From Gemmatimonadota bacterium (GTDB lineage Bacteria > JBHIER01 > G020348925): a stretch of DNA of 64,000 nucleotides. The stretch is taken from the NCBI GenBank assembly GCA_020348925.1, contig CP070758.1, positions 3,127,338 to 3,191,337 on the forward strand. Direction: 5' to 3'. The position numbers were made by a program, and so were the translations under genes. Below are positions 34,631 to 51,072 of this stretch, piece after piece. The notes beneath the pieces are model-generated. The model was given only the letters and a program-made list of their open reading frames with translations. It ran no database searches and was not told the origin of the DNA. Numbering within the stretch: the stretch's first letter is position 1; each line of letters starts with the position of its first letter.

Positions 34631-37600
34631 CTATTTTATCAGCACCATCCTTCGGGTTTCGAGAAAATCACCGGCTTCGAACTCGTAAAAGTACACACCG
34701 CTCGGGAGATCGGCCCCGGCATCATCCCTTCCGTCCCAGCGCACGCTGTACCGTCCGGCAGCCCTCACTCCATCAACAAGAATCCGCACAGACTGACCGA
34801 GAAGGTTATAGATCTGGAGCCGGACATGACCGGTCTCGGGAAATCCGAACTGAATCTCGGTCTCGGGATTGAAGGGATTGGGATAATTCTGCGAAAGGTG
34901 ATACGTTGACGGAATGGCATCGGTTCCGATGGTCAGATGAACATTCCGGTTCATCAGGGGAATGGTGCGGTTCATGATATCCCTCAATCCTGAGGTCTCA
35001 ATACGGATGTCGGTGGTGCCTTCTCGTTTCGGCGTGAACCTCAGGACGGCCACCGTACCGGATCCGTCGACGCCAAGCGGTTGTCCACCCAAAGCAACGA
35101 CGCTTATTTCGATCGATCCGTGATGGGCGTCCACGCCTTTCACCATCGAAATGAGCGCGCCGTTGTTGCCCAGAAACGGGCCCTGCTCAACGTCAGCGAC
35201 CTCCAAGATGTCGGGATCGAACCGAACCTGCGCCATCGCTCCCAAAAGACGGTTGACCTGTTCAACCTCAAGACGGAGCGCAAACACCTCCCCTACCGGG
35301 ACAGACGCCTCAGCCTTGAGCATGACCAGGGCTTGACCCGCCATCTCCGGATCGGAGACATATTTCGCCCCACCGCCTCTGACCGCCTCCTTGTACCAGT
35401 TGTACATCAGGGCGAACACCACGTGATCCTCAAAATCGATGACACCTTCTCCGGGAAACGGATAGTTCGTCTTGGACCAGGGCGGGCTTCCGGCACCGCC
35501 GGGACCGGGATATCTGGCCACATCCCCGGTCAGATCGTCCGGATCGGCGTTCCAGTATTGGAGAAACAGGGCGTAGTCGGCGAAATCGACATCGTCATCG
35601 TTATCGAAATCACACAGCAGATCTCCATCCCCTATGCCCTCAAACCGCCCGTCATCGTGGGTCACGTCAATGGTCGCATTGAGCGTGTCGCGCAGGGTGT
35701 AGTTTCCAAAAGGAAGATCACTGGACGGATCCGCCACTTTGGCCTTAAAGGTCAGTTTGGCAATGGTCCCGCCTCCGGATATCCCCTTCGGAATCCCCCC
35801 CAAAAGAGAAAACTCAACGGAACCGGTCCCGTTCGTGTTATCAAAATCAGACATGAACCCCGTATTGTCCGGGTTGTTCTGGTACAGAAAACTCCCTTCG
35901 GATATACTCAACAGCTCCACCTTGTTCGTCACGAAGAAGAAGGTGATGCTGGCTCCCAACAGGTTTTTTACATCCCTGATTTTCAGATGGACAACTGAGG
36001 AGACCGATCCGAAGAGATAGCATGGATCCGGTTCGAAATAGAGTTGCGCCGTTGCAGAAGAGCCTATTGTTTTAAAAACTTCATTGTTCCCCTCGTTCCA
36101 CTCCTCGACGGCTCCATCAGGATCGATACGGACATAGATATCGTGGGCATCAAGGTCCGGCATGGTCCATGAAATCTGAACGGTTCTGCTGTCACCGTCG
36201 GTGAGATTGAACACCTCCTGGTCGCTGCCGATGGGATTGACAACGACGTCCGGATCACCGTCGTAGAATCGAATCGTGACTGCAGCCACTGTGGCGCCTT
36301 GATCGGTGTGACAATGGATCGTTGCCGAAATGGTGACACTCTCCCCCATATTTGGAAACATGTTGGAAATGGTGAGGTCGTCCGTCGCGATGCTGAGATC
36401 TCTCAGTGACGTCCAAACCGAGGTGGTTTGCGATTCTCCTATGGCTCCGTTCGAATCGGTCACTCTGAGGCGCACAAAGCCCGAGTATTCCACATTCCAG
36501 GTCATGGTGGTGGTCACACCTGTGGCATCGTCGTATGCATCATCCCCATCCAGATCCCACTCGTACAACACAATGTTGTCTCCCTGATCAGGATCGTATG
36601 AGCCGCTCCCATCAAAGGTGATCTGTTGGCCGACGTGGGCCGCGTAGGGGCCTCCGGCATCGGCCACGGGGGGATGGTTGCCTCGGTTCACAATGATCGC
36701 ATGTTCGTCGGTGTCGGTCATCGTGGGACTGCTATCGTCCGTCACCTGAAGGGTCACATAGACCGTATCCCGATCGACCCCGAGGGGCAATGAGTAGCCA
36801 GACCCGTTTGTCACCGCTTTGCCCTCGGCATCCGGATTGTTCCAATTGACCCCGTCGGATTTATCGAAATCCCACTTCCAGGAGAGGATATGTTTGTCCG
36901 GATCCTGATGCCACGACTGGGAGCCATCGAGGTCCACCGGGCTGTTCGGGGGCACAGAATCGGCGGCCACGACGACGGCAACCGGGGGCAGCTCGAACAC
37001 CCCGGGACTGAGAATGAGGACGCCAAAAGCCGTCGACAACTCCTCAATCGATCCCCCCCAACCACTCCACTGACCCACAGGCCAACTCCCATTCATATCA
37101 TGACCATAGCTGGCATCGTAGATCAGATAATCGACGTATTCGTCATACCAGTTGTGGGCTCCAATGGTGACAATATTGGAGCCATCGGGGTATCGAATGG
37201 TCCGACAGCCTTTGGCCACGGCGTACATGCCGTAATAATTACCGTTCATATGCTCCCGCCAGCCGTATTCATCGGACGTATCATTCCAGTGGTTGACCAT
37301 AAACTGGATCGCATTTTCGATGGCCGTGTCACTGGCGGATGTCTTCAGATAGGAATGGGAGCAGATCGCAGCACCCGTCTTTGTGATATTATCGATCTCC
37401 TCATCATAGGTGTAACCAAAGCCTCCAAAATCATCGCTTCTCGGATTCTTCACCTGGCTGTTGTACAACCATTTTGCCAGCTCCGTCTTGACAAAACCCG
37501 AGGCCACTATGCCCCACGAGTTTTCCGCCGCTTCGAGAGCCAGGGCCGGCCACTGCACGGCGGAATTATCGCTGCTGCCGTAATCAGCCGTGCTGGAAGA

Positions 37601-38584
37601 ATACCGCCACCCGCCCCGACCGGCGCGGGTCGTATCCGTCTGGCTCCAGACCAGACAGTCCGCAGCGTTGATCATGAACTGGCGATACGTGACGCCGTTG
37701 ACATAGGTCTGCGGCCCGGACGTGATGACGGCATCCGGGGTGTTGCTGGCTACGATGGCCAACAGCGCAATCCCGTTGGCGTAGTTGTTGCTCGTCACAT
37801 ACGTCCCTTTTCCATCCCCATTCGCGTCCGGATCTCCGGCAAGCTGCATCCCGATATCCACCACCCCGACATGAGAAGAGGCAAAAAGCCAGTCCAGACC
37901 CAACTTGACATACTCAGCATAAATGTCCGTATCGATATCATTGGCCGGGAGATGCCCCTGGTTCTCAAAAGCCAAAATACACAGACCGGTGGTGCCCACC
38001 CCGTACTCGTAGGACGTTGTATACCAGTAGCCCTGCGAATACTGTTGCGTATAGAGGTAGCGAAGACCGTCTTCGATGGCGGCCAGTCGCCTGGTTTCGG
38101 TCACATCGGCCAGAACATTGATCCGAACCTCATCGGAGTCCGAGGCCCCGTCACCGTCGGTAACCGTCAGCCTGGCCGTCTTCACTCCGAAGGTCGTAAA
38201 CGTGTGGTTCACGGCGATGTAATGATCATCTGTCACCGTTCCGGTATAGACACTGTCTCCGACAACCCATTCGTACGTTCCTGTCCCCGAATCGCCCCAG
38301 TGGACATTGCCCCAGACGACGATTTCACGATTGGGCCACGTGTAGTACGTCGGCATCACGTTGACCCGCGGATCCGAATTTGCGTTCTTCATCGCCCCTC
38401 TCCAAGTGCTGGCCGGATCGATCTGTGTCTCCTCACGCACCTGCGGAACCGAGGGTCGATATGTCTTCAATAAGTCCTTCGCTCTCTTCAGCACGGCGTC
38501 CTCTTGGCCGATTCCCAACGAACAAAAAGACATCAGGACGATGAGACTTAAGGCACTCACGGCAAAACGATTTGATCGAAACAT
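34631..38584 (-). CDS. Secreted toroid/PKD/CARDB/cohesin/dockerin protein with sorting domain
   Basis: This is a 1317-residue mosaic. Rough layout: signal peptide 1-26; PKD-like 75-155; alpha/alpha toroid related to prenyltransferase/squalene-oxidase repeats 165-525 (GLRYLYTQQ, GLDWLF, QWPALALEAAE); PKD pair 530-720 (SWKWDFD, YEWDLDGDD); CARDB-like 728-840; cohesin-like 845-975; dockerin-like Ca-binding pair 988-1065 (CDFDNDDDVDFADY, GEGVIDFEDHVVF); second cohesin-like 1085-1220; FlgD-like sorting domain 1228-1317 ([15 protein letters not shown]). GGAGG precedes the ATG. It is the last gene of the TonB-receptor cluster. The toroid lacks an obvious DxDD cyclase motif, so a terpene cyclase role is unlikely. 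Function is unknown, probably surface scaffolding or ligand capture. Confidence 0.9.
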   Translation of the reverse strand: MFRSNRFAVSALSLIVLMSFCSLGIGQEDAVLKRAKDLLKTYRPSVPQVREETQIDPASTWRGAMKNANSDPRVNVMPTYYTWPNREIVVWGNVHWGDSGTGTYEWVVGDSVYTGTVTDDHYIAVNHTFTTFGVKTARLTVTDGDGASDSDEVRINVLADVTETRRLAAIEDGLRYLYTQQYSQGYWYTTSYEYGVGTTGLCILAFENQGHLPANDIDTDIYAEYVKLGLDWLFASSHVGVVDIGMQLAGDPDANGDGKGTYVTSNNYANGIALLAIVASNTPDAVITSGPQTYVNGVTYRQFMINAADCLVWSQTDTTRAGRGGWRYSSSTADYGSSDNSAVQWPALALEAAENSWGIVASGFVKTELAKWLYNSQVKNPRSDDFGGFGYTYDEEIDNITKTGAAICSHSYLKTSASDTAIENAIQFMVNHWNDTSDEYGWREHMNGNYYGMYAVAKGCRTIRYPDGSNIVTIGAHNWYDEYVDYLIYDASYGHDMNGSWPVGQWSGWGGSIEELSTAFGVLILSPGVFELPPVAVVVAADSVPPNSPVDLDGSQSWHQDPDKHILSWKWDFDKSDGVNWNNPDAEGKAVTNGSGYSLPLGVDRDTVYVTLQVTDDSSPTMTDTDEHAIIVNRGNHPPVADAGGPYAAHVGQQITFDGSGSYDPDQGDNIVLYEWDLDGDDAYDDATGVTTTMTWNVEYSGFVRLRVTDSNGAIGESQTTSVWTSLRDLSIATDDLTISNMFPNMGESVTISATIHCHTDQGATVAAVTIRFYDGDPDVVVNPIGSDQEVFNLTDGDSRTVQISWTMPDLDAHDIYVRIDPDGAVEEWNEGNNEVFKTIGSSATAQLYFEPDPCYLFGSVSSVVHLKIRDVKNLLGASITFFFVTNKVELLSISEGSFLYQNNPDNTGFMSDFDNTNGTGSVEFSLLGGIPKGISGGGTIAKLTFKAKVADPSSDLPFGNYTLRDTLNATIDVTHDDGRFEGIGDGDLLCDFDNDDDVDFADYALFLQYWNADPDDLTGDVARYPGPGGAGSPPWSKTNYPFPGEGVIDFEDHVVFALMYNWYKEAVRGGGAKYVSDPEMAGQALVMLKAEASVPVGEVFALRLEVEQVNRLLGAMAQVRFDPDILEVADVEQGPFLGNNGALISMVKGVDAHHGSIEISVVALGGQPLGVDGSGTVAVLRFTPKREGTTDIRIETSGLRDIMNRTIPLMNRNVHLTIGTDAIPSTYHLSQNYPNPFNPETEIQFGFPETGHVRLQIYNLLGQSVRILVDGVRAAGRYSVRWDGRDDAGADLPSGVYFYEFEAGDFLETRRMVLIK

Positions 38585-38647
38585 GATTCACAATCCTCCT
38601 TTTGAGCAGGCCATTCTGAAAGAATTCGATTATGAGACCGCGGTCCG

Positions 38648-39217
38648 TTACTGCGGTGGAAGAATTTCCCCGTGGTTGAAGCAGACATCCGCAACCGGTA
38701 CCGGTGGATTCGCCACAGGATAGTCGTACAATTCGACGGTCTCAAACGTGAGATCCGTTGTAGGATCGGCCACCTTGGCCCGAAACGTAATATCAGCAAT
38801 CGGCCCGTCCCCGGAAACGCCCTGAAATCCCTCTTTTCTCCCAAGAAGCCCGAAAATGACCGTGCCGGGTGTAGAGTAGTCCATTTCCGAGACGACAATA
38901 CTCGCCCCGGTGCTGGTAAAGAGGTTGTCGGCCAATCCGGTGATATCGATGCCGGTCACCTCCACTTTGTCGGCATCATACGTGATGACGACCCTGGCCG
39001 CGGTAAGATTCTCCGGATTGAGGATCTTCACTTCCAGGGTGACACTGTTGCCTGCGGACACGTAGGCTGGACTCGGACTGAAGGACAGTTGTAAGCGCCC
39101 GGCAGCACAGCCATCCGAGGGCCCCGTTCCACCATCACCGTCCTCACCGCAACTCACGACCAAAAAAGCAACCGCAACAAGTACCGTCACCATCCCCAAT
39201 TTTCGGAAATACCGCAT
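38648..39217 (-). CDS. Cohesin-domain lipoprotein
   Basis: The 189-residue product from ATG 39217 (AAGGAGGG site) has a lipoprotein signal with a lipobox ending LVVSC (C23), then an acidic Gly-rich linker (GEDGDGGTGPSDG). One cohesin-type beta-sandwich (about 40-180) follows, including SVTLEVKILNPENLTAA, GIDITGL and DITFRAKVADPTTDLTF. The last segment closely resembles LTFKAKVADPSSDLPF in the first cohesin of the next protein, so the two share ancestry. It is likely outer-membrane anchored and could present a cohesin for dockerin-bearing proteins or self-assembly. It is 63 bp upstream of the large mosaic gene. Confidence 0.85.
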   Translation of the reverse strand: MRYFRKLGMVTVLVAVAFLVVSCGEDGDGGTGPSDGCAAGRLQLSFSPSPAYVSAGNSVTLEVKILNPENLTAARVVITYDADKVEVTGIDITGLADNLFTSTGASIVVSEMDYSTPGTVIFGLLGRKEGFQGVSGDGPIADITFRAKVADPTTDLTFETVELYDYPVANPPVPVADVCFNHGEILPPQ

Positions 39218-39388
39218 AGTAACCCTCCTTCTTTTAGAGTGAACGACCGATAGAGAAATCTGGAGATCCTCAACACCTCCCCCCCACCCATGATCTGACA
39301 AGTATAAATATGGTAATTCCAACAGAATTGTCAAGCTTTAATTGCGTCAGGCTGCGGGAGCAGGGATCGCAAGCGCTCTCTGAGATCT

Positions 39389-40582
39389 TTACTCCTCCAG
39401 CTCTTTCAGCGAAAGGGCTTGCTCAAGGGCCAAGATCGCGTAGGCCGTCACGAGATCCTTATTATTCTCCCACCATCGTCCCACCTGGTTCACCCAATAC
39501 CCGTCGCCGTGCTGAAGGCTTATGACCTTTTTCAGAAACTCCTCTCGCCAGTTATGTTCGACGTTGTTCTTATCGGTGACGATCTCCTCCCCGTAGACGT
39601 CCAAGGCTTTGGCCATGGTGTGATAGTAATAGTACAGGCCCTGGTCACCCATCTCGGGATTTTTATCCAAAGTGAAATGATCTCGAATCCAATCATACGC
39701 CGCTTGAACCCGCGGATCGTGACGGTCCACTTGGGCGTAGATAAAGCTCCTCATGCCCGCATACGTCATCGTCCCGTATGACGTCGTGCCACCGGCCTGA
39801 CTGAATCCGGGGTAGTATACAAATCCGCCGTCATCGGAGGCCCATTCCTGATCGTTCGACTCCCTCAGATTTTGACAGCGTTGAAGGAACAGAATCGCTT
39901 TTTCCCAGAAGAGCTCTTTGGAGCCGGCGGCGGTGCCGGTCACGGTCTGAGAATAGACCAGCGTCTCTCCCGTCCCTTCGCTCGTCGGTCGATAATTTTC
40001 CGACTCCTTGAGAGCCTCCAGGGCAAACTGCATATTGGACATATCCGGCCGTTCGTCACCACCGTACCCGATGCCGCCGTAGAAAACGTTGCTGGCATCA
40101 TATCCTTCCTCCTCGTCCGCCTGGAGGTCGATCAGAAAATCCCTGGCTCGCCGGATCGTCTCCGTATAGTCGGGATTGTCCGCAGCCACCAGAGCGACCA
40201 GAGCGACGGACGTATTGTACCCCGGCATATCGTGTAAGTAAATCCCACCATCCGGCTGAACACAGCGCAACAAAAATTGAATGCCGTTGTACACCGCGGC
40301 ATTATTCTCCTCAGTATACCCTCTGGGGCTTCTCAGGAAGGCCGTAATAACCAAAGAGGTGATACCAGGGTATGAGCTCCAGGAACCGTCATCCAGCTGG
40401 TTTTGCTCAAGCCAGTTGAGCCCCACCTCGATAGCATGCTCGACCTCCTTTTGGAGGGAGATCTCGATAACAGGTTCCGATCTCACCGAATCGCTTTTTT
40501 GAGCCAAGGCCAGGCTCGAGGGCAGGAAAACAATGAACCAGGCTGTCAAACCTTTTCGAAGAAGCTTCTTCTTGAATTTCAT
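39389..40582 (-). CDS. Secreted alpha/alpha-toroid protein (prenyltransferase/squalene-oxidase repeat type)
   Basis: The 397-residue product from ATG 40582 (AAGGAT site) has a signal peptide (LTAWFIVFLPSSLALA) followed by repeating helical pairs with GLNWLEQNQLDDGSWSS, GIQFLLRCVQPDGG, ALVALVAADNP and VISLQHGDGYWVN. These are the QW-like repeats of the terpenoid cyclase/prenyltransferase toroid fold. It carries no DxDD motif, so it is probably not a terpene cyclase. It is related to the toroid part of the downstream 1317-residue protein. The start is 15 bp after the YdjY-like gene. Confidence 0.85.
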   Translation of the reverse strand: MKFKKKLLRKGLTAWFIVFLPSSLALAQKSDSVRSEPVIEISLQKEVEHAIEVGLNWLEQNQLDDGSWSSYPGITSLVITAFLRSPRGYTEENNAAVYNGIQFLLRCVQPDGGIYLHDMPGYNTSVALVALVAADNPDYTETIRRARDFLIDLQADEEEGYDASNVFYGGIGYGGDERPDMSNMQFALEALKESENYRPTSEGTGETLVYSQTVTGTAAGSKELFWEKAILFLQRCQNLRESNDQEWASDDGGFVYYPGFSQAGGTTSYGTMTYAGMRSFIYAQVDRHDPRVQAAYDWIRDHFTLDKNPEMGDQGLYYYYHTMAKALDVYGEEIVTDKNNVEHNWREEFLKKVISLQHGDGYWVNQVGRWWENNKDLVTAYAILALEQALSLKELEE

Positions 40583-40596
40583 AGCAGATATCCTTG

Positions 40597-41301
40597 TCAA
40601 TCTTCAGTCCGCACATTCACGGCCTTTAGAATAAGGTTCACCGGCGTCCCTTTCTCAGGCACAAGGCTCTCGTTGACCCGATAGAGCGTGTCGTCTGCCC
40701 CGCTCGGCAGCGGATTGTTCAAGATCGCAAAGGGATCATGGAAGGTTGCAATGAGGCATCCCTCGAAATCAGCCATGAACGTTCCGTTTACGATTTTCGA
40801 ACCTGTGAAGATCCACGGGGTCTGCTCCATCGTCCTCTTCTCAGCGATATTGTACACCAGATCCTCAGCCCGATGCCTCTCAGGCTTCCCGTTCTCCTGC
40901 CATTCCACCCAGACTTCCAACGAATCACCCTGGGGGGTGTTGGCATCCCCCTGGTACTCGATATTTCCGCCCGGTTCCAACCCCATGAGGAGCAGAGCCA
41001 CTTGCAATTGATACGGCTCCACGTCCAGCACCAACGTACTTTCATGCAATTTCCCAAATCGCGTGCAGGCAAAATACTCAATCAAGCCTCGCTGCATGTT
41101 TATCTCGCCTTTCATGGAAAGCTCGTTGGTGTTCTGATCAAGGACGACAGCGCCGATTTGATAAACACCCTCAGCTATTTTTTCAACAGAGGGCTCATCC
41201 TTCTTCTGCGGTGTTTCCGATTCTTGACCGGACGTGGTGCCCAAAACGATGACGGTGGCCAAGAATCCGACCGCCATCGCCACTCTTCTGGATCGCGACA
41301 T
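40597..41301 (-). CDS. YdjY-domain secreted protein
   Basis: The 234-residue product from ATG 41301 (GAGG site) has a signal peptide (MAVGFLATVIVLG region), then a domain with EGVYQIGAVVLDQNTNELS, GLIEYFACTRFGKLHESTL, PYQLQVALLLMGLEPG and ATFHDPFAILNNP. These segments match the YdjY-type family often annotated in Planctomycetes and related bacteria. Its biochemical role is unknown. It sits between the TonB receptor and the toroid protein. A terminator-like hairpin with a T8 tract ends 24 bp upstream of its start. Confidence 0.78.
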   Translation of the reverse strand: MSRSRRVAMAVGFLATVIVLGTTSGQESETPQKKDEPSVEKIAEGVYQIGAVVLDQNTNELSMKGEINMQRGLIEYFACTRFGKLHESTLVLDVEPYQLQVALLLMGLEPGGNIEYQGDANTPQGDSLEVWVEWQENGKPERHRAEDLVYNIAEKRTMEQTPWIFTGSKIVNGTFMADFEGCLIATFHDPFAILNNPLPSGADDTLYRVNESLVPEKGTPVNLILKAVNVRTED

Positions 41302-41324
41302 GATGGTCCTCAACTTCCAAAAGT

Positions 41325-41375
41325 AAAAAAAAGAGTGCACGAAAGTCCTTTCCTGCGTCCTGTCGGTCTTCGTGC
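41325..41375 (-). terminator. Hairpin plus T tract between TonB receptor and YdjY-like genes
   Basis: GCACGAA (41369-41375 side on the minus strand) pairs with TTCGTGC across a 25-nt loop, and TTTTTTTT follows four bases later. The short stem makes it a weak terminator. It may reduce expression of the downstream genes relative to the receptor. Confidence 0.4.
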
Positions 41376-41464
41376 CTCGAGAATTCGGACTGTTCATCCT
41401 CAATATAGTCTCAAAAATCACTCCGTGCAACGTTTAGGCTTCACAGCGCCTCTGGGCGGGCACG

Positions 41465-43822
41465 TCATATGGAGATCTCGGAAGATACGATGAAGCACCT
41501 TCCTGGCCCGTCAATCCCCGACCCGTGCTCCCTGTAAGCCTTGTCCAGGATGTTCTCCAAACCAACGCTCGCTCGTACAACATCTGTCACATGAAAACCG
41601 GCTCTGATATTGTGCGTGATCCATCCCGGGGTCCCCCCTATCGGGATTCGCACATCGGCCTCATCATCTGCGGACAGCTTATCCTGCCTGGTCGCAAATC
41701 GACTGAAACACTCGACCCACAGCCTCCGCTGAAGAGGACTCCATTGGACTCCGAGAAATCCGAAAGCCGGCGGAATCCGCCGCAGGGGCTCGTCCCTGCT
41801 GAGATCCCTTCCGGACGTCCAGGTGAAATGACCGAAGAGAGACCAACTCGGGACGACGAACCATTCCCCATGTGCCTCAAAACCCTTGATGCGGGCTTCG
41901 TTGATATTGACTTTCCTCCAGACCTGCTCGCCATCGAGAGTTGGCGAACCATGGTATGTGCTCGGTTCGCGGTCAATAAGGTCATCCAATTCAGTTACGT
42001 ATGCGGCGACAGCGCCGCTCAGAGACCGAGATCTGACTTTCAGGCCAATTTCGTAAGTGATGCTCTTCTCCGGGTTCAAACCCGGACTGGGTACCTCGAT
42101 GCCGGCGTGGAAATCGCCGAAGGTCGTTTCGTCATCGACATTGGGAGTCCGAAAGGCCTGGGCAATACTGAGAGTGACATTCACATGATGTGTTAATCCG
42201 TACACCGCGCCGAAACTGCCGGTCACTGCGTCGGTCGCAGCGTCAATGGCCCCAAAGGTGGAATCTTGAAGATCGGCCTTCAATCCGAAACAACTGTATC
42301 TCCCCCCGACTGACACCGAAACGTTCGGAAGAATTGAGACTTCGTCCTGGACGTATACGGCATAACTCTGAAAAGATGATCCATCAGGATACCTGGATCT
42401 CTTCGATTCGCTGAGCCCAGTCTCGACCTCGGTATCCCTCCTCTCGCTGCCGATGTCATCCCTGTAAGCCTCGACGCCGTATGTCAGGCGATGTCTCCGC
42501 CCGAGACTGGAATTCAGCTGGATACCGATACCCAGGGTTCTCGTGTTATCCTCCTCGACCGTCAACAGCGTCTCCCCTTCCTTCCGCTTCTTCCGCCCCT
42601 CATTCTGTCTGTGGTACGAAATCGTCGCTCTCAGCACTTCAATGTAGGGCGCCACGTGGCTCACACGGTAATCCACAAACAAGAGATCTCGATTTTGTGG
42701 CGAATACAGATAGGTGGCATACGCACCGCTGTTCTTTTTACCCGTTGCATACCTCCCCTCCGGATATTGATCATACCGGGGGACATCCTTTTGTCGCACG
42801 GCCTGATAAATCCATCTCCATCGGTGCTTCTCGGAGGGCTGGTACCAGAGTGTGATGTTCCCATCGATCTCCCTCCACCCGGTTGGAGATTCGATCCCCA
42901 AATCCCCCCCCGCCCTGAGATCGCCGACATCTCTGTACGTTGCCCCAATCGAGAACCCGAGCTTACGATGGCCACCCTTCAATTCCAAACGCCCCATCCT
43001 CTCCTTATCAGCGCTGGAATATTTTGAGGCGCACACGAGAGACGTCCTGAATTGCTCTTGCACATTGCCTGGCCCCTTCGTGATGATGTTGATGACGCCG
43101 CCCTGTGCATCGCTTCCGTAGAGAACAGAGCCCGGTCTTCGCACCACCTCTATCCTCTCCACGTCTTTGGGATCAACGGTGCTGACATACTGGTTGGGTC
43201 CATAGCGAAAGGTGGAATTGTTGAGCCTGATCCCGTCGATCAGAACGAGTACGTTGTACCCCATCAAGCCCCTTACAACAGGCGCACCATGCCCGTGCGT
43301 GGTCTTCTGCACGAAAATTCCTACCTCCTCCCTGAGAATCTCCGGAGTCGTGCGGGGTGTTCTCCGTTCGATCTCCTCCTCTTGCGCCACTGTGACGGCA
43401 TGGTGAGTCTGAAAAACATCTTTTTCAGTACGGGCTGCCGTGACGGAAATCTCCTCAAATTGCACGATCCTCTGCTGCAATTCAAAGTCCACCCTGACAG
43501 GCATCGTGCTTGTGACCCTCACATTTTCCGAACGATCGTCCCGATAACCAACAAGAGAAGCTCTCAGGCTGTACTCTCCCGGTGGAAGGTTCGGGATGAT
43601 ATACTTTCCCTCGGCATCCGTCGTCGCTCCCAGCGTCGTTCCCTCCAGGACGATATTGACTCCGACAAGAGGAATTTTGGTCTCCGTATCACGGACGCTC
43701 CCTACGATGGTGCCCTCAGGTTCGGAAAAGCCGGCGTTCGCAGCAAAGAGAGCGAGCATCAACCCTCGGAGGATCGACCGTGTCACCGTTTCGGTTGTCC
43801 CAGTGATACCGTGGACCTTCAT
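41465..43822 (-). CDS. TonB-dependent outer-membrane receptor
   Basis: The 785-residue product from ATG 43822 has a signal region (GLMLALFAANAGFS), then a carboxypeptidase-regulatory-like domain at about 35-115 (GTIVGSVRDTETKIPLVGVN). A TonB-box-like EISVTAAR segment and a plug domain follow (APVVRGLMGYNVLVLIDGIRL, VERIEVVRRPGSVLYGSDAQGGVINI), and the rest is a 22-strand-type barrel. It imports a siderophore, cobalamin or glycan across the outer membrane. No ligand-specific gene is adjacent, so the substrate is open. It is the first gene of the cluster ending with the 1317-residue surface protein. Confidence 0.93.
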   Translation of the reverse strand: MKVHGITGTTETVTRSILRGLMLALFAANAGFSEPEGTIVGSVRDTETKIPLVGVNIVLEGTTLGATTDAEGKYIIPNLPPGEYSLRASLVGYRDDRSENVRVTSTMPVRVDFELQQRIVQFEEISVTAARTEKDVFQTHHAVTVAQEEEIERRTPRTTPEILREEVGIFVQKTTHGHGAPVVRGLMGYNVLVLIDGIRLNNSTFRYGPNQYVSTVDPKDVERIEVVRRPGSVLYGSDAQGGVINIITKGPGNVQEQFRTSLVCASKYSSADKERMGRLELKGGHRKLGFSIGATYRDVGDLRAGGDLGIESPTGWREIDGNITLWYQPSEKHRWRWIYQAVRQKDVPRYDQYPEGRYATGKKNSGAYATYLYSPQNRDLLFVDYRVSHVAPYIEVLRATISYHRQNEGRKKRKEGETLLTVEEDNTRTLGIGIQLNSSLGRRHRLTYGVEAYRDDIGSERRDTEVETGLSESKRSRYPDGSSFQSYAVYVQDEVSILPNVSVSVGGRYSCFGLKADLQDSTFGAIDAATDAVTGSFGAVYGLTHHVNVTLSIAQAFRTPNVDDETTFGDFHAGIEVPSPGLNPEKSITYEIGLKVRSRSLSGAVAAYVTELDDLIDREPSTYHGSPTLDGEQVWRKVNINEARIKGFEAHGEWFVVPSWSLFGHFTWTSGRDLSRDEPLRRIPPAFGFLGVQWSPLQRRLWVECFSRFATRQDKLSADDEADVRIPIGGTPGWITHNIRAGFHVTDVVRASVGLENILDKAYREHGSGIDGPGRCFIVSSEISI

Positions 43823-43905: not shown

Positions 43906-44679
43906 CTAATATACCCTCACCTTCACCCCCGTCCGGTCCGCAACCTCCTGAGCGATTTCTTCCAAAATCGATCGCTCCACCCTTTCGATTCGGCCATCCG
44001 CCGAGGGACGATCGATCGTGTACATTTGGACGTCGTTGGGTTTGATCCGCTCGAGGGCCTGAATCCAGGATTCTCTTTCCCGTCGGCCGATATTCTCCAC
44101 CCCTCCTCTCATGAAAGCGGACTGAATGGAAAGATCCTTCAAGTGACACAACCCTTCGATAATCTCTTCCAGGTCCAAGGAAGGGGCAGGTCGATTCACC
44201 GCTTGGAATGTCTCGGCATCACCGGCATCGAGTTTCATAATCCTTCTGTCCAGCTTCATGAGGGCCTCCCGGACGGAAGGCAGGTGAACGGTCGTCGAAT
44301 TCGACAATACGGCCACCGGCACGTCGGGGACGTATTGATCTCGGAGGGCTTTCACCTCATCGACGATCCCACTGAACTGCGGATGCAAGGTCGGCTCACC
44401 GTTCCCTGAGAAGGTTATGTATTCCGGACGCTCGTGTCGATCACTGAAGCTCTTGAGCGCCTGCCTCAGTTCATCGGTCACATCGGTCAGGGATGGGAAG
44501 TGAACCACCGAATCCGCCTGATCGACCGTTTTCACCTCCGTCACGCCGTAATGGCAGTAGACGCAGTCGAAGGAGCACAACTTCACATCGGATGGGAGAA
44601 GATTTATGCCCAGCGAGCTTCCGAGTCGCCGGGAGTTTACGGGACCGTAGACACAACTGGTTTGTAATGAATAGACCAT
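43906..44679 (-). CDS. Radical SAM protein
   Basis: The 257-residue product has the iron-sulfur triad C35-x3-C39-x2-C42 in LCSFDCVYC. The SAM-binding segment TFSGNGEPTLHP follows, and the VYGPVNSRRLGSSLGINLLP opening is typical of the family often annotated as wyosine-like or Fe-S oxidoreductase (related to PflA/TYW1-like short proteins). I prefer the ATG at 44679, with AAGG at good spacing, over 44688. The substrate is unknown. No obvious partner gene is adjacent. Confidence 0.9.
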   Translation of the reverse strand: MVYSLQTSCVYGPVNSRRLGSSLGINLLPSDVKLCSFDCVYCHYGVTEVKTVDQADSVVHFPSLTDVTDELRQALKSFSDRHERPEYITFSGNGEPTLHPQFSGIVDEVKALRDQYVPDVPVAVLSNSTTVHLPSVREALMKLDRRIMKLDAGDAETFQAVNRPAPSLDLEEIIEGLCHLKDLSIQSAFMRGGVENIGRRERESWIQALERIKPNDVQMYTIDRPSADGRIERVERSILEEIAQEVADRTGVKVRVY

Positions 44680-44719
44680 ATCGCTCATCCTTATTCACTC
44701 AACAGGGAGGCACCGATGA

Positions 44720-45595
44720 TCAGCGAATCCCTATATAGTTCGCCACGTTTGCTTCGGGATCAATGGACGGGAGTATCTTTCCCTGAGAGGAGGTCAAGAC
44801 GGTCATCACACCGGGTCCATGTCCTGAGACGACACAATCACAGTGCACCACGACGCCGATGGACACCGCCCCTTTTCTGTAAACGCGGCCGTAGGTGTGA
44901 TCGGCATCCATTAGGGCGACCAGATCCCCTAAGCGGACATCCTCAAGCCCGTGCTCTTCAATGACCGTGGTATCGGCGAGTTGCATATCGTAATCGCCGC
45001 TGTATGCATGGGAGGTGCCGATACCTGATCCCATGGCTGCTGCCGGTATGGCCTGGGTAACGGGAACGGAGAGAACACCGTCCTCACAGGCGAGAGGTAT
45101 CTTTTCCAGGAGACCGGGATCTATATTCATCACTCTCACATCGGCGCAGTCGAGCAATTTCAATCCGAGGCCGCACGCTCGAACCATCACCTTGTCCCCG
45201 ATGACCAATGTCTTCAGAATCTCAGGCTCGAAATCGACCAGGACATGTTCAATCCCTCCGTGTTTCCCCGTCACAACACCCCTCTCTCCTTTGGCCTCCC
45301 CGGAGACCATTCTGGCCTCGTTTCCCACACAGCAGAGGATGTTCAGGGCAGTGTTTGCACTCTTCCCTTCCCCTTTTTCGAGGTTCTTGATGCTCACTCC
45401 CGGTTCAACATGGTCTCCCTCCCAACCGACCGCCTTGTCCCCGATACGAACGTTATACGTGATGCCTCCAACTCCAGGAAGAACGACGGCCTCACCCTCT
45501 GGGCTGATGTTGTACGGCATCTTTCTGAAAATGGGGCTGACCACCTCCCCCAGCACCGACATCACGACCAATCTCTCTCTGTTTGTCCGAATCAT
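44720..45595 (-). CDS. DUF4438 family protein
   Basis: The 291-residue product matches the DUF4438 family (structure known for a Thermotoga protein, function unknown). It has IRTNRERLVVMSVLGEVVSPI at the start, GGITYNVRIGDKAVGWEGDHVEPGV, SANTALNILCCVGNEA, and the C-terminal DHTYGRVYRKGAVSIGVVVH and SGHGPGVMTVL segments. It is soluble, without signal or membrane segments. It lies between the lysine transaminase (37 bp upstream) and the radical SAM gene and could share an operon. Confidence 0.85.
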   Translation of the reverse strand: MIRTNRERLVVMSVLGEVVSPIFRKMPYNISPEGEAVVLPGVGGITYNVRIGDKAVGWEGDHVEPGVSIKNLEKGEGKSANTALNILCCVGNEARMVSGEAKGERGVVTGKHGGIEHVLVDFEPEILKTLVIGDKVMVRACGLGLKLLDCADVRVMNIDPGLLEKIPLACEDGVLSVPVTQAIPAAAMGSGIGTSHAYSGDYDMQLADTTVIEEHGLEDVRLGDLVALMDADHTYGRVYRKGAVSIGVVVHCDCVVSGHGPGVMTVLTSSQGKILPSIDPEANVANYIGIR

Positions 45596-50996: not shown

Positions 50997-51072
50997 TGGT
51001 GAGGGTGGTGGGAATCGAACCCACGACTCACGGCTTAAAAGGCCGTTACTCTACCGACTGAGTTACACCCTC
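50997..51072 (-). tRNA. tRNA-Lys (anticodon UUU)
   Basis: The cloverleaf folds fully: acceptor GAGGGTG/CACCCTC, D stem ACTC/GAGT with AGTCGGTA loop, anticodon stem ACGGC/GCCGT with loop CTTTTAA (anticodon TTT), T arm GTGGG TTCGATT CCCAC, discriminator A, and an encoded CCA. It has its own promoter and reads lysine AAA/AAG codons. Confidence 0.97.

Follow-up and report, generated by a model that had tools for sequence, protein, structure and literature searches.

A possible TonB-linked uptake module around an exported toroid and YdjY pair in a Gemmatimonadota bacterium

We analysed a 64,000-nucleotide stretch of contig CP070758.1 from a Gemmatimonadota bacterium (assembly GCA_020348925.1), here called the window, and in it a run of surface genes that an earlier note had described as one five-gene machine for capturing and importing a ligand. 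All five minus-strand open reading frames (ORFs) exist. They encode a TonB-dependent receptor, a YdjY-domain protein, a small exported toroid protein, a cohesin lipoprotein and a giant protein with a toroid of its own that ends in a sorting domain of the type IX secretion system (T9SS) (Table 1). From receptor to giant, the intergenic gaps measure 163, 14, 171 and 63 bp. The earlier note had suggested a single transcription unit, and its tight spacing and strong terminator are borne out; a promoter-like site falls inside the 171-bp gap ahead of the lipoprotein gene, and two more same-strand genes stand close upstream of the receptor, so one transcript for the locus is plausible, and no firmer than that.

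Table 1. Genes, domains and signals of the locus, in window positions
Feature	Position	Strand	Remarks
TonB-dependent receptor, 794 aa	41465-43849	-	CarboxypepD_reg extension, Plug and barrel; second ATG at 43822
YdjY-domain protein, 234 aa	40597-41301	-	N-terminal signal sequence; without ferredoxin cysteines
Small exported alpha6/alpha6 toroid protein, 397 aa	39389-40582	-	conserved predicted pocket at N-termini of inner helices
Promoter-like site TTGACA-16-CATATT	39307-39334	-	matches the consensus only; lipoprotein and giant might have a second start here
Cohesin-domain lipoprotein, 189 aa	38648-39217	-	no counterpart found in relatives' loci
Giant T9SS cargo, 1317 aa	34631-38584	-	PKD, toroid, two PKD, CARDB, cohesin, degenerate dockerin-like stretch, cohesin, T9SS tail
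Giant's toroid domain, residues 160-545	36950-38107	-	hhalign homology to small toroid
Giant's first cohesin, residues 847-966	35687-36046	-	38% identity to lipoprotein cohesin
Giant's dockerin-like stretch, residues 990-1065	35390-35617	-	one canonical F-hand, one degenerate; no Pfam detection
Giant's second cohesin, residues 1093-1198	34991-35308	-	Pfam scan
Giant's T9SS type A sorting domain, residues 1234-1314	34643-34885	-	TIGR04183, 31.9 bits (cut-off 23)
Intrinsic terminator, 17-bp stem, 4-nt loop	34570-34607	-	-27.6 kcal/mol, z -7.5

The small toroid matches the Pfam family SQHop_cyclase_C (27.8 bits, cut-off 26.1), and the structure prediction that the earlier note had proposed as a check gave a confident alpha6/alpha6 barrel of 12 helices (AlphaFold2; predicted local distance difference test, pLDDT, 88; predicted template modelling score, pTM, 0.85). 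Its best fold match in the PDB is squalene-hopene cyclase 2sqc (Z 26.8, 284 residues aligned, root-mean-square deviation 2.7 Å), followed at lower scores by cellobiose 2-epimerase (Z ~24), AprG (Z 22.8) and a GH76 mannanase (Z 22.5). Like the class II terpene cyclases (squalene-hopene cyclase, MstE) and the beta subunits of protein prenyltransferases, it combines this toroid with QW-like Q-x3-GSW repeats. Unlike the terpene cyclases, it is a secreted, single-domain protein without a conserved DxDD motif, which is absent from the window copy and matched in just 8 of 40 family members. On the class II terpene cyclase family TIGR01787 it reaches 37.8 bits against a cut-off of 322.7. The earlier description of the toroids as sharing a cyclase-type fold yet being exported and without a conserved DxDD is supported. 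Near-invariant residues gather at the inner-helix N-termini, which hold 32 of the 69 such residues in 90 of the 350 positions (inner and outer helices were assigned by their order, without coordinates), and the conserved motifs include YNTS, DLSN, SYGSMTYAG, YYYYH and RWWE. This clustering at the inner-helix mouth marks a predicted functional pocket.

The YdjY protein is recognized by NF040466 over nearly the full domain length (156 bits, cut-off 50). E. coli YdjY is annotated as a 4Fe-4S ferredoxin-type protein (PMC9068703); unlike it, the window protein contains neither a CxxC motif nor a ferredoxin part and is a near-obligate partner of the toroid. Its model is good (pLDDT 88). Sequence searches returned no PDB template, the best Foldseek match had an E-value of 0.55, and the top row of a VIA-align fold search, a DUF371 protein at Z 6.4, scores too low to mean much. 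Both YdjY and the small toroid carry Sec-type signals but neither a lipobox nor a T9SS tail, which makes a periplasmic location probable. The outer-surface location proposed for the whole set thus fits the giant and the receptor, and probably not these two proteins.

We looked at how the pair is arranged elsewhere. The window's genome, a single contig of 5.04 Mb, is phylogenetically isolated among the genomes compared, and its relatives agree with it at the level of domain only. An initial scan for related loci with YdjY alone gave no matches; YdjY searches found partners in four genomes (G136, G134, G045 and G039), with YdjY and toroid adjacent except in G039, where they are fused as a toroid-CARDB-YdjY protein. 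In G039 we also observed a YdjY domain followed in frame by what appears by eye to be an acylphosphatase domain (L026:8936-9895), adjoining a gene for a MocA-like nucleotidyltransferase. A scan of named genomes yielded 56 toroid loci from KSB1, Cloacimonadota, Krumholzibacteriia, GN15, Ignavibacteriae, Eisenbacteria, Poribacteria, Acidobacteriota classes, Verrucomicrobia and Planctomycetota. In 22 of these loci YdjY is the gene immediately before the toroid, and in 15 a giant toroid protein is encoded downstream in the same orientation. The adjacency is usual in the phyla of the Fibrobacterota-Chlorobiota-Bacteroidota (FCB) group, and YdjY was found directly upstream of the toroid in 22 Verrucomicrobiota genomes. 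A toroid homologue is also present on a contig labelled as a Methanophagales archaeon (L078:350-3373).

The association extends beyond neighbouring genes. YdjY and the small toroid occur in an identical 6 of 145 sampled genomes (p ~2e-9 leaving out the window's genome), and in G135 they lie more than 1 Mb apart. Among 240 Verrucomicrobiota genomes, 112 contain the toroid, 89 contain YdjY and 87 contain both (p 2e-39). We conclude that YdjY and the toroid very probably form a functional pair. These data also bear on another alternative, a chance neighbourhood of five unrelated surface genes. The cohesin lipoprotein and the cohesin and dockerin modules have no counterpart in relatives, as chance would predict, while several phyla preserve the order YdjY-toroid-giant and three families co-occur at the level of whole genomes. 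As an account of the locus, chance is very hard to credit: it is refuted for the core and stands for the cohesin lipoprotein.

The receptor has both expected domains (Plug PF07715, 77 bits, E 1.5e-21; barrel PF00593, 162 bits, E 5e-47). Its nearest named class is the heme/hemoglobin receptor family TIGR01785, on which it scores 274 bits, under the cut-off of 316.85; full-length toroid-linked receptors reach 188-232 bits. It also falls under the B12-receptor cut-off and gives 85 bits on the SusC class TIGR04056 against a cut-off of 368, and a Pfam scan found no SusD family among the five window proteins. Heme receptors place a heme-ligand histidine between their FRAP and NPNL boxes. A histidine is present there in the window copy (GDFHAG) and is not conserved across the toroid-linked receptors, so heme as the ligand, read from receptor class, is unsupported.

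Several arrangements tie such receptors to the toroid. Receptors of the same class lie upstream of it in the window and in L032 (fragmented), L035, L052, L061 (50 bp away) and L069 (164 bp). Nine receptor ORFs were found in 354 kb of toroid flanks, every one no more than 3.5 kb from a toroid; the binomial p of 0.008 over six loci comes from a receptor profile built partly from these same receptors. A second TonB receptor, of another class and on the opposite strand, sits within or beside the module at L035:6824-9112 and L052:11161-13344. In two Poribacteria the gene directly upstream of the toroid, 37 and 77 bp away, encodes a TonB protein (L065:9017-9874, L073:3912-5021). L065 also encodes, 4-5 kb upstream, a fusion of a metal ABC-3 permease with an iron-dependent repressor domain. 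In three Verrucomicrobiota (L128, L129, L138) a divergent toroid and a gene for an extracytoplasmic function (ECF) sigma factor stand beside a window-related receptor; the annotations of sigma factor and divergent toroid come from L138 and were carried over to the other two through a sequence cluster and profile, and the receptor position in L129 was taken from a receptor search of the Verrucomicrobiota.

That search, with the toroid-linked L061 copy as query and a threshold of E 1e-60, found the receptor subfamily in 40 of the 240 genomes; all 40 have the toroid and 39 have YdjY. Within the toroid-bearing Verrucomicrobiota, receptor and YdjY remain associated (p 9e-5). Because most receptor-bearing genomes hold the receptor on a different contig, close linkage cannot account for the co-occurrence. 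Outside the Verrucomicrobiota, the receptor tracks the toroid less closely, being present in two of six toroid genomes and in four toroid-negative ones (Fisher p 0.02). Taken together, these ties make it fairly likely that the YdjY-toroid pair is linked to TonB-dependent transport. Where the earlier note had suggested looking for co-occurrence of all five families, the comparison finds a near-obligate YdjY-toroid pair with one TonB-receptor subfamily tied to it, and a cohesin lipoprotein absent from relatives' loci.

Our tentative reading, which we rate slightly short of even, is that the locus is a TonB-linked uptake module around the exported small toroid and YdjY. Several observations weigh against it. 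The p-values for co-occurrence ignore shared ancestry, which can partly explain the Verrucomicrobiota pattern. At E 1e-60, 48 of the 87 Verrucomicrobiota with toroid and YdjY have no receptor of the subfamily, an Akkermansia-type genome among them, and the pair stands without it in FCB genomes as well (G134, G136, G045 and the genomes of L031 and L034). Conversely, the receptor subfamily occurs in four sampled toroid-negative genomes. We therefore reject the receptor as an obligate part.

The remaining adverse point is that enzymes make up most of the listed PDB matches of the toroid fold. The small toroid might accordingly be an exported enzyme, with YdjY as its subunit or chaperone and a substrate in the envelope or outside the cell; the receptor would bring in substrate or take up product, and the giant's toroid would be a surface paralogue. 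The pocket is very strongly conserved across phyla, in the manner of active sites, and persistence of the pair in receptor-less genomes also suits an enzyme. Nevertheless, the toroid has no known catalytic signature, with no conserved DxDD and scores far under the cyclase equivalogs, and ties to TonB turn up in several independent arrangements. We consider this explanation, the main rival, unlikely, though worth keeping in view. That the toroids act instead as a binding relay and not as catalysts is to us nearly an even call.

The giant protein would supply the second toroid of such a relay. By hhalign, its toroid domain is a homologue of the small toroid (probability 99.8, E 1e-30 over 306 columns), and the consensus of the giants' toroids retains part of the pocket (S-x-N...Q-W and T-A-F/Y). 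The window's genome encodes the T9SS translocon protein SprA (708 bits, joined), and the giant is likely displayed on the surface through this system. Giants of relatives scanned with Pfam contain PKD domains, the toroid, T9SS-tail or FlgD-type ends and mostly CARDB, with no cohesin or dockerin among them.

The cohesin and dockerin parts follow a different pattern. Cohesin domains are found in both the giant (48.9 bits) and the lipoprotein (34.8 bits; Pfam cut-off 24.1), the latter with the lipobox LVVSC. As the earlier note held, the two proteins share a related cohesin: the lipoprotein's domain is 38% identical to the giant's first (E 9e-15), a better match than to ten other cohesin loci of the genome. 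Its call of a dockerin in the giant is weak, since Pfam detected no Dockerin_1 at E up to 1 and the stretch holds a single canonical F-hand, DFDNDDDVDFAD at residue 992, with the second degenerate, where a dockerin has two repeats. The cohesin lipoprotein was found in no relative's locus. Such modules are common currency in the window's genome, which has 81 cohesin matches and at least 153 dockerins, besides at least 150 T9SS tails. One example there is a 2179-aa protein at L027:6238-12777 (~3.524-3.531 Mb) in which a zinc carboxypeptidase (M14) is combined with BACON, a toroid, a dockerin and a T9SS tail. Cohesin-dockerin pairing as the unifying principle of the locus is rejected, being lineage-specific and without counterpart in relatives. 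Judged by sequence, these parts are a decoration peculiar to this genome's copy, outside the conserved core.

The giant's composition also raises the idea that toroids and YdjY serve as structural components or assembly factors of a surface layer or adhesin, in which the PKD, CARDB and cohesin domains would be adhesive spacers. The giant is indeed a PKD- and CARDB-rich T9SS protein in a genome rich in cohesin, dockerin and T9SS proteins, and a PorV-like gene adjoins the module in Cloacimonadota, with genes of the same cluster in KSB1. This idea explains neither why the pocket is invariant nor why the receptor co-occurs in Verrucomicrobiota, nor does it account for the pair in genomes with no giant toroid seen nearby, and we regard it as rather improbable.

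Beyond the five genes, a radical S-adenosylmethionine (SAM) gene with a weak TYW1-like match and a DUF4438 gene lie upstream of the receptor (43906-45595, minus strand, gaps of 31-84 bp). They were rejected as module members, having no match in relatives' neighbourhoods. An Rfam scan of the window matched only a tRNA (51000-51072, minus strand) and no RNA regulator.

Returning to the uptake module, a small ligand would be captured outside the cell by the giant's surface toroid, imported by the TonB receptor and then bound, or processed, in the periplasm by the small toroid together with YdjY, so that two homologous pockets, one on each side of the outer membrane, might work in relay. In this genome's copy, the cohesins and the dockerin-like module may act as a tether to a general cohesin-dockerin surface network, outside the core mechanism. 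Ligand capture and import, as the earlier note had it, stands as the leading inference, short of demonstration. Neighbourhoods and co-occurrence indicate that the receptor, YdjY and the toroids form one group; there is no support for a machine of five genes in which cohesin and dockerin play functional roles.

TonB-dependent receptors with surface or periplasmic partners include the SusCD, HmuRY and BtuB/BtuG types. As in those systems, receptor genes here adjoin genes for exported partners and are kept as a unit. The differences are that the partners here comprise YdjY and an alpha6/alpha6 toroid, that a SusD-like protein is missing, and that the receptor falls under the heme, B12 and SusC cut-offs. 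Cohesin-dockerin surface complexes have been proposed for Cloacimonadota (PMC8542988). The window's genome resembles these and cellulosomes in having cohesin domains and T9SS-type anchors together, and it differs from cellulosomes in that cohesin and dockerin are not conserved at the locus, which encodes no catalytic glycosidase or peptidase. The open literature searched held nothing relevant on YdjY, secreted toroids or AprG and no description of a receptor-YdjY-toroid set, in agreement with the earlier view of the combination as undescribed.

With more doubt than confidence, we propose an undescribed form of TonB-dependent import in which a T9SS surface toroid and a periplasmic toroid with YdjY pass on a ligand or, where the receptor is missing, a periplasmic chemistry common to FCB bacteria and Verrucomicrobiota including Akkermansia. 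The toroid-YdjY pair is present in about one third of the sampled Verrucomicrobiota (87/240) and in many candidate FCB phyla, and its near-perfect co-occurrence and ties to TonB receptors make a concrete function testable. One carrier, G265, is a closed single-contig Verrucomicrobiota genome of 2,664,102 bp that has YdjY and toroid at 616.5-618.3 kb, the toroid with its pocket motifs retained, and no receptor of the window subfamily at E 1e-60. It seems to belong to the gut species Akkermansia muciniphila, whose published genome is CP001071 (PMC2613244). This apparent carrier would open the question to study in a cultured human commensal, beyond metagenome-assembled genomes.

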